DNA of 32,230 bases, taken from positions 1 to 32,230 of the forward strand of contig JARLIN010000243.1 in the NCBI GenBank assembly GCA_031291715.1, read 5' to 3'. This document shows, piece by piece, positions 15,367 through 32,230 of this stretch. The DNA is from Rhodopila sp. Lineage in GTDB: Bacteria > Pseudomonadota > Alphaproteobacteria > Acetobacterales > Acetobacteraceae. A program made the translations under genes and the position numbers. The notes beneath the pieces were generated by a model that made no database searches, was not told the DNA's origin, and saw only the letters and a program-made list of their open reading frames with translations. Position 1 is the stretch's first letter. Each line of letters starts with the position of its first letter.

Positions 15367-15468
15367 GCGACGCACCGCCAGGGGGAAGTCGGTCTGGGGG
15401 GCGATGTCCCCAGGGTTCCGTATAGAGGCCGACTCTCGTTGGCCCAATCGTCATGGGCCCTCTACCTC

Positions 15469-15550
15469 GTCATGGCCCGGCGACAGTCCGGGCCATCTGC
15501 CACGGCATGGCGCTGGATCAGATGGCCCGGACGATCGCCGGGCCATGACG
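15469..15550 (+). repeat. 82-bp palindromic (REP/BIME-like) element, copy 1
   Basis: Two hairpin units, gtcatggcccggcgacagtc/cgggccat and atggcccggacgatcgccgg/gccatgacg, flank a central gccacggcatggcgctggatca. A near-identical copy lies inverted at 32122-32203 with about seven differences by eye. The conservation of the non-palindromic centre shows that the whole 82 bp moves as a unit. Confidence 0.75.
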
Positions 15551-15587
15551 GATGGGGAGACGGTCGCCGGGCCATGACGGATGGGGA
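15535..15587 (+). repeat. Tandem duplication of the element's right end
   Basis: The 24-bp string beginning tcgccgggccatgacggatg and ending gggga occurs at 15535 and again at 15564, a 29-bp period. It covers the last 16 bp of the palindromic element and its right flank, so it arose after the insertion. Confidence 0.75.
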
Positions 15588-15667
15588 ATGGCTGCGGGTT
15601 CATCTTTCGGCCGCTTGGTATGAGATGATGGCTCCGGCGCAAACCGTGAACGACAGACCCTTGGACG

Positions 15668-31920: not shown

Positions 31921-31952
31921 AAAGCGGCCAGCCCTGTCCTCCCGGCCGCTTT
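31921..31952 (+). terminator. Terminator of the cydAB operon
   Basis: AAAGCGGCC and GGCCGCTTT form a 9-bp stem around a 14-nt loop, 21 nt after the last stop codon. Only three T follow, part of the stem, so efficiency is uncertain. Confidence 0.6.
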
Positions 31953-32097
31953 GCCATGCGCCGGCGTTGAGGCCGTCAGTTCATGTCCCCAACACGCATT
32001 CACACATCGCGACCATAGTATATACCTATATATATTATTCTGCTCCGGCCGTTACTTCTGGACATCGAACATTTCGAGCGGCCGGCCCGCGCATGTC
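31953..32097. other. Intergenic stretch with AT-rich core
   Basis: No gene seen. The core at 32016-32040 (tagtatatacctatatatatt) is far more AT-rich than its surroundings and could be a promoter for a gene beyond the window. Together with the palindromes that follow, more than 300 bp at this end are non-coding. Confidence 0.5.
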
Positions 32098-32227
32098 GTC
32101 CTCGCCCGGCGACAGTCATGTGGTCATGGCCCGGCGACCGTCCGGGCCATCTGATCCAGCGCCGTGCCGGGGCAGATGGCCCGAACTGCGCCAGGCCATG
32201 ACCACATGACTGTCGCCGGGCAAGGAC
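32098..32227. repeat. Nested long inverted repeat containing palindromic element copy 2
   Basis: Outer arms of 34 nt (gtcctcgcccggcgacagtc... and its complement at 32194-32227) match at 33 of 34 positions. They enclose and partly overlap the 82-bp element 32122-32203, which is the inverted copy of 15469-15550. The outer gcccggcgacagtcatgtgg arms again carry the cccggcgacagtc motif of the element itself, so one palindrome appears built into another. Confidence 0.8.
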
Positions 32228-32230
32228 AAC

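Follow-up and report, generated by a model that had tools for sequence, protein, structure and literature searches.

A nested palindrome at the end of a Rhodopila contig is very probably a CGTC-type REP dimer flanked by extra half-REPs

The stretch of DNA analysed here (the window) spans an entire contig (G000:C539; 32,230 nt) of a Rhodopila sp. draft genome (6.24 Mb, 545 contigs, 91% complete), and its final 136 bases are occupied by a palindrome that encloses another palindrome, raising the question of what kind of element this is and how the nesting arose. The arms (32098–32131 and 32194–32227; 33 of 34 positions matching) surround an 82-nt palindrome (32122–32203), as a first-pass annotation had described, and when extended they reach 42 nt (32095–32136 and 32189–32230) with a complementarity of 93%. 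The same annotation had anticipated a long hairpin or cruciform, which fold prediction supports—the minimum free energy of the palindrome strand was −118.1 kcal/mol as compared with −66.8 ± 4.6 kcal/mol in dinucleotide shuffles (z = −11.3), and none of the 200 shuffles folded as well. Arms of 34 nt with at least 30 matches within 120 nt occur at one further place in the window (15466–15552), where the same repeat recurs. We conclude that the palindrome is a real feature of an already-known kind, a small bacterial hairpin repeat (REP element), and that it encodes nothing.

The key to the anatomy of the palindrome is a 25-nt direct repeat (32092–32116 and 32117–32141; 84% identity), into which the motif previously noted in both outer arms resolves. 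Read in this way, the feature is very probably a dispersed non-coding repeat composed of a CGTC-type REP dimer and an extra half-REP on each side (Table 1), and the additional half-REPs extend the 81-nt hairpin to a nested hairpin of approximately 136 nt. The outer arms abut the core at a distance of 0, the half-units have a period of 25 nt and tandem half-units resembling the left outer arm are present in other copies. Given that the outer palindrome is an extra half-REP on each side, made of the same repeat as the core, repeated insertion of one element into another, as initially proposed, is not the interpretation that fits this locus best. Apart from this locus, the sub-type of the outer unit with a TCATGTG linker has been seen only where contig C402 begins, and there the adjacent 16 nt (CGGCCGGCCCGCGCAT) are also shared and are possibly part of a longer arm; it is therefore possible that the true palindrome extends further than the window does, all the more so because the right arm forms the last bases of the contig.

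Table 1 Components of the palindrome and the basis on which each was assigned
Feature	Position	Strand	Basis
Core: head-to-head dimer of two ~31-nt REP palindromes, ~81-nt family (model R1)	32123–32202	+	cmsearch, 90.9 bits, E 4.7e-18
Left REP, itself palindromic, ATGGCCCGG..CCGGGCCAT type	32123–32153	+	Sequence; consensus arm alone −18.6 kcal/mol
Right REP, inverted partner, diverged (GAACTGCGCCAGG)	32173–32202	−	Sequence, alignment
Left outer arm: one extra half-REP (CGTCCTCGCCCGGCGACAG + linker TCATGT), in tandem with the left REP	32097–32121	+	25-nt direct repeat, 84%
Right outer arm: mirror copy of the extra half-REP, stops at the contig end	32203–32230	−	Arm comparison, contig end
CGGCCGGCCCGCGCAT (16 nt), common to the start of contig C402 beside the same outer unit	32079–32094	+	Two places in the genome

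The core belongs to a family with many copies. BLAST located the dimer at 40 places in the genome. Searching with a covariance model based on 32 copies (alignment A1; mean column identity, 89%) added further places, 20 of which were retrieved; the resulting copy number of at least 60 is a lower bound, as the model scored a limited number of candidates. The model also detected the ~81-nt family in 28 of the 33 genomes of the genus, which the nearest cytochrome bd subunit II relatives place as Rhodopila-like Acetobacteraceae. The plasmids and phages searched contained no match, and no Rfam family reached its gathering score for the repeat. In members of the family, a 19-nt spacer separates two 31-nt palindromes (ATGGCCCGG..CCGGGCCAT) that are inverted relative to each other (consensus, GTCATGGCCCGGCGACAGTCCGGGCCATCTG-ATCCAGCACCGTGCCGTGG-CAGATGGCCCGGACTGTCGCCGGGCCATGAC), and the consensus dimer can be folded either as two small hairpins or as a single long hairpin. 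Nearly all copies in this genome have C before GTCATGG (the CGTC head tag), and the loop of the copies is mostly CGACAGT (7 nt) and the tail CTG; in the relatives G041 and G046, the loop is 5 nt (CTTGT). Extra half-units flank 20 of 53 copies in the present genome (left only, 6; right only, 11; both sides, 3), and tandem arrays of half-units exist, such as repeated CGTCATGGCCCATC in L174. Pairing of the ATGGCCCGG/CCGGGCCAT stem is kept in about 94–95% of cells in the alignment of copies. Structural covariation was considered as proof of an RNA function and rejected—94% of the pairs were kept, but covariation was not clearly above that of shuffles.

These properties can be set beside those of CGTC-tagged REPs, which predominate in Alphaproteobacteria, have no known transposase and carry an unpaired CGTC (or TGTC or CCTC) head, a stem of 8–9 bp starting from complementary AT, a loop of 4–5 nt and a tail near CCA (PMC3733652). 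Their head-to-head dimers have a conserved spacer of ~20 nt, and REP dimers within longer palindromes have been reported for H. neapolitanus and A. variabilis (PMC3733652, Di Nocera et al. 2013). The present family shares the CGTC head, a 9-bp stem starting with AT, the head-to-head dimers with a spacer of such length, the occurrence in Alphaproteobacteria and the lack of a dedicated transposase; the tag, the stem and the dispersal as multi-copy head-to-head dimers were found across the family, and the intergenic position of copies was checked for the two window copies only. It differs in the 7-nt loop of most copies in this genome, in tails of CTG or CCG instead of CCA, so that the copies of this genome fall outside the described loop length and tail, in the tandem half-units outside the dimer and in residence in a MITE that duplicates TNA (see below). 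The window core is further set apart by its tag, which reads GGTC rather than CGTC; the outer unit carries CGTC. The GGTC tag and a loop exceeding 4–5 nt count against identification as a REP dimer, although we treat the longer loop as a variant and not as grounds for exclusion because other loops are allowed in some genomes (PMC3733652). REPINs (Bertels and Rainey 2011, PMC3116915) are similar in being inverted REP doublets that form one hairpin and are dispersed and non-autonomous. In contrast to REPINs, and in keeping with CGTC-tagged REPs, the Y1/RAYT transposase (PF01797) is absent from this genome (91% complete) and from 14 of 16 relatives, REP-rich ones included, and a REPIN driven by RAYT was rejected on these grounds.

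The position of the palindrome at a contig end bears on how far its right arm can be trusted. The first-pass annotation had suggested checking whether assemblies break here. Indeed, the window itself ends in the palindrome, and of 40 copies, 8 are no further than 100 nt from a contig end compared with 0.7 expected (~11-fold enrichment; P = 4e-7). In addition, 11 contigs begin with an end of the type-A element described below that points off the contig, some contigs degenerate to poly-G within the repeat, either right after CGTCATGG(G)CCCGG or shortly before it (L165, L169, L172, L177, L181, L187, L265, L267 and L271), and the relatives G046 and G042 have similar contig ends. Long poly-G (or poly-C) contig ends also include L266, and most of these ends fall just past the first bases of the REP palindrome. 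The poly-G ends are likely to reflect failed sequencing within hairpins, carried over into the assembly; the simplest reading would be two-colour Illumina reads going dark inside the hairpin, and a search of the literature on poly-G at hairpins returned nothing useful. As REP elements break assemblies, the last 28 nt of the window are unconfirmed, and, since the assembly stops inside the right arm, the exact form of that arm is uncertain.

It is accordingly conceivable that the right arm is an assembly or library artefact—a fold-back, or a k-mer switch to another copy—and that the real locus has the left extra unit only. We regard this as unlikely but far from negligible. The contig terminates exactly in the right arm, 28 nt of which (GGCCATGACCACATGACTGTCGCCGGGC) repeat the left arm exactly in reverse complement and the next 9 of which match C402, and other contigs finish in poly-G within the same repeat. 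However, the arms are not identical, with two mismatches in the outer part and several in the core, which excludes a simple fold-back, and the right half of the core has private variants. A REP dimer with an extra half-REP on both sides remains our preferred description.

Nesting by insertion, although no surrounding element (cradle) is visible at the window locus, does describe many other copies in the genome, in which the dimer lies inside an unrelated inverted-repeat element. One such element, a type-A MITE, is ~160 nt in length and has inverted TACCAAsCsGCG tips and a central REP dimer; by a loose pattern, 28 of 53 copies in this genome are placed centrally in an element with such tips. 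The 23 pairs of left and right tips span 109–250 nt, apart from one outlier at 1.4 kb, and their lengths cluster at ~160 nt (dimer inside), ~110 nt (collapsed to a single REP) and 180–250 nt (extra units). The 3 nt outside the tips form an exact duplication of the form TNA in 12 of 22 pairs (5.2 expected by re-pairing; P < 1e-4), and the variable middle base matches in 15 pairs (7.1 expected; P = 2e-4), indicating that type-A elements are MITEs moved by a TNA-duplicating transposase. This transposase presumably belongs to the IS5/IS1031 group, an assignment made from the duplication alone. Many family copies thus resemble IS5-like MITEs in their ~160-nt element, TACCAAsCsGCG tips and 3-bp TNA duplication, but the window copy lacks such tips and no autonomous partner was found—matches to PF13586, PF13340 and PF01609 in the draft genome had no paired TACCAA tips. 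Around the window copy, there are no TACCAA tips left of 32095, and the right side lies beyond the contig end. The second copy in the window (15469–15579, minus strand) comprises a REP dimer with an extra half-REP unit, or with such units on both sides, and lies near the left end of a type-A MITE (15596–15620).

Type A is not the only setting of the dimer. In the relative G041, it occupies a different cradle (tips, CATTGGCGTTAAAATAG), and further unrelated cradles were each encountered as single cases (L295, L328 and L026). When 79 non-redundant contexts were compared with mismatched pairs, 10.1% of the former and 1.4% of the latter had inverted flanks with a score of 11 or more (Mann–Whitney P = 2e-4). 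Cradle and core seem to be exchangeable, given that L171 and L183 have a type-A cradle around a different CGTC-REP dimer (CGTCATGGCCGGACCTGATCCGGCCATCC...). Another MITE of ~60 nt was also observed in many copies (L270 (G000:C407:17223-17280), L268 and L269; tips, TACCAACCGCC; core, GTTGACCC..GGGTCAAC), sometimes beside a ~55-nt palindrome (TACCAACCGTCGCTATC...).

With dimers placed centrally in unrelated inverted repeats above chance, and with C402 sharing the outer unit together with 16 further nucleotides, the window palindrome could be pictured as an 81-nt REP dimer inserted in the centre of a pre-existing outer palindrome. This seems rather improbable to us: the arms of cradles usually start 16–22 nt from the dimer, whereas those in the window start at 0 and are REP sequence, and in this genome no empty outer palindrome was found and the outer unit with its flank occurs at two places only.

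The palindrome lies downstream of a cytochrome bd operon, ~200 nt beyond it and on the same strand, with a terminator-like hairpin (31921–31952) in between as judged from the sequence. The cytochrome bd operons of relatives are without the repeat; their downstream regions are too diverged for an empty-site comparison. Two other features of this region were observed: a 38-amino-acid small protein with DUF2474 (PF10617; 31783–31899) is encoded immediately 3′ of the cytochrome bd subunit genes, with a similar small frame after cydB in the relatives L080–L085, and a short A+T-rich stretch (atagtatatacctatatatattatt; 32016–32040) in G+C-rich surroundings lies just 5′ of the palindrome. A function as transcription terminator or mRNA-stabilising hairpin of the operon is very improbable, because, although REPs are often found downstream of genes (PMC3733652) and the palindrome is downstream on the same strand, the terminator-like hairpin is already nearer to the operon, the operons of relatives lack the repeat and the family is dispersed genome-wide.

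The extended REP dimer is thus most likely a non-autonomous repeat without locus-specific function. At this locus, it would have no dedicated regulatory role and would at most form a stable RNA hairpin if transcribed. The outer half-units may arise through replication slippage at the hairpin; slippage alone would fit less well, as the outer arms of the two sides match each other better than it predicts, and intrastrand template switching might keep them alike. Template switching is known for quasipalindromes (for example, PMC7202029). For the family as a whole, we tentatively suggest that MITEs, mobilised in trans by a DDE transposase and not by RAYT, are the main carriers with which dimers spread; against this, no transposase with TACCAA tips was found.

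For the locus itself, the meaning is small: the palindrome is a repeat, and it cautions that contigs of such genomes end in hairpins which short reads fail to span. A point of more general interest is that several types of MITE carry CGTC REP dimers. It is possible, if still doubtful, that several unrelated DDE-transposase MITEs disperse these dimers as exchangeable cores, so that the dimers would borrow general transposases instead of RAYT. The TNA duplications around MITEs that contain REPs suggest an answer, open to testing, to a question from the REP literature: by what means CGTC REPs move although they lack their own transposase.
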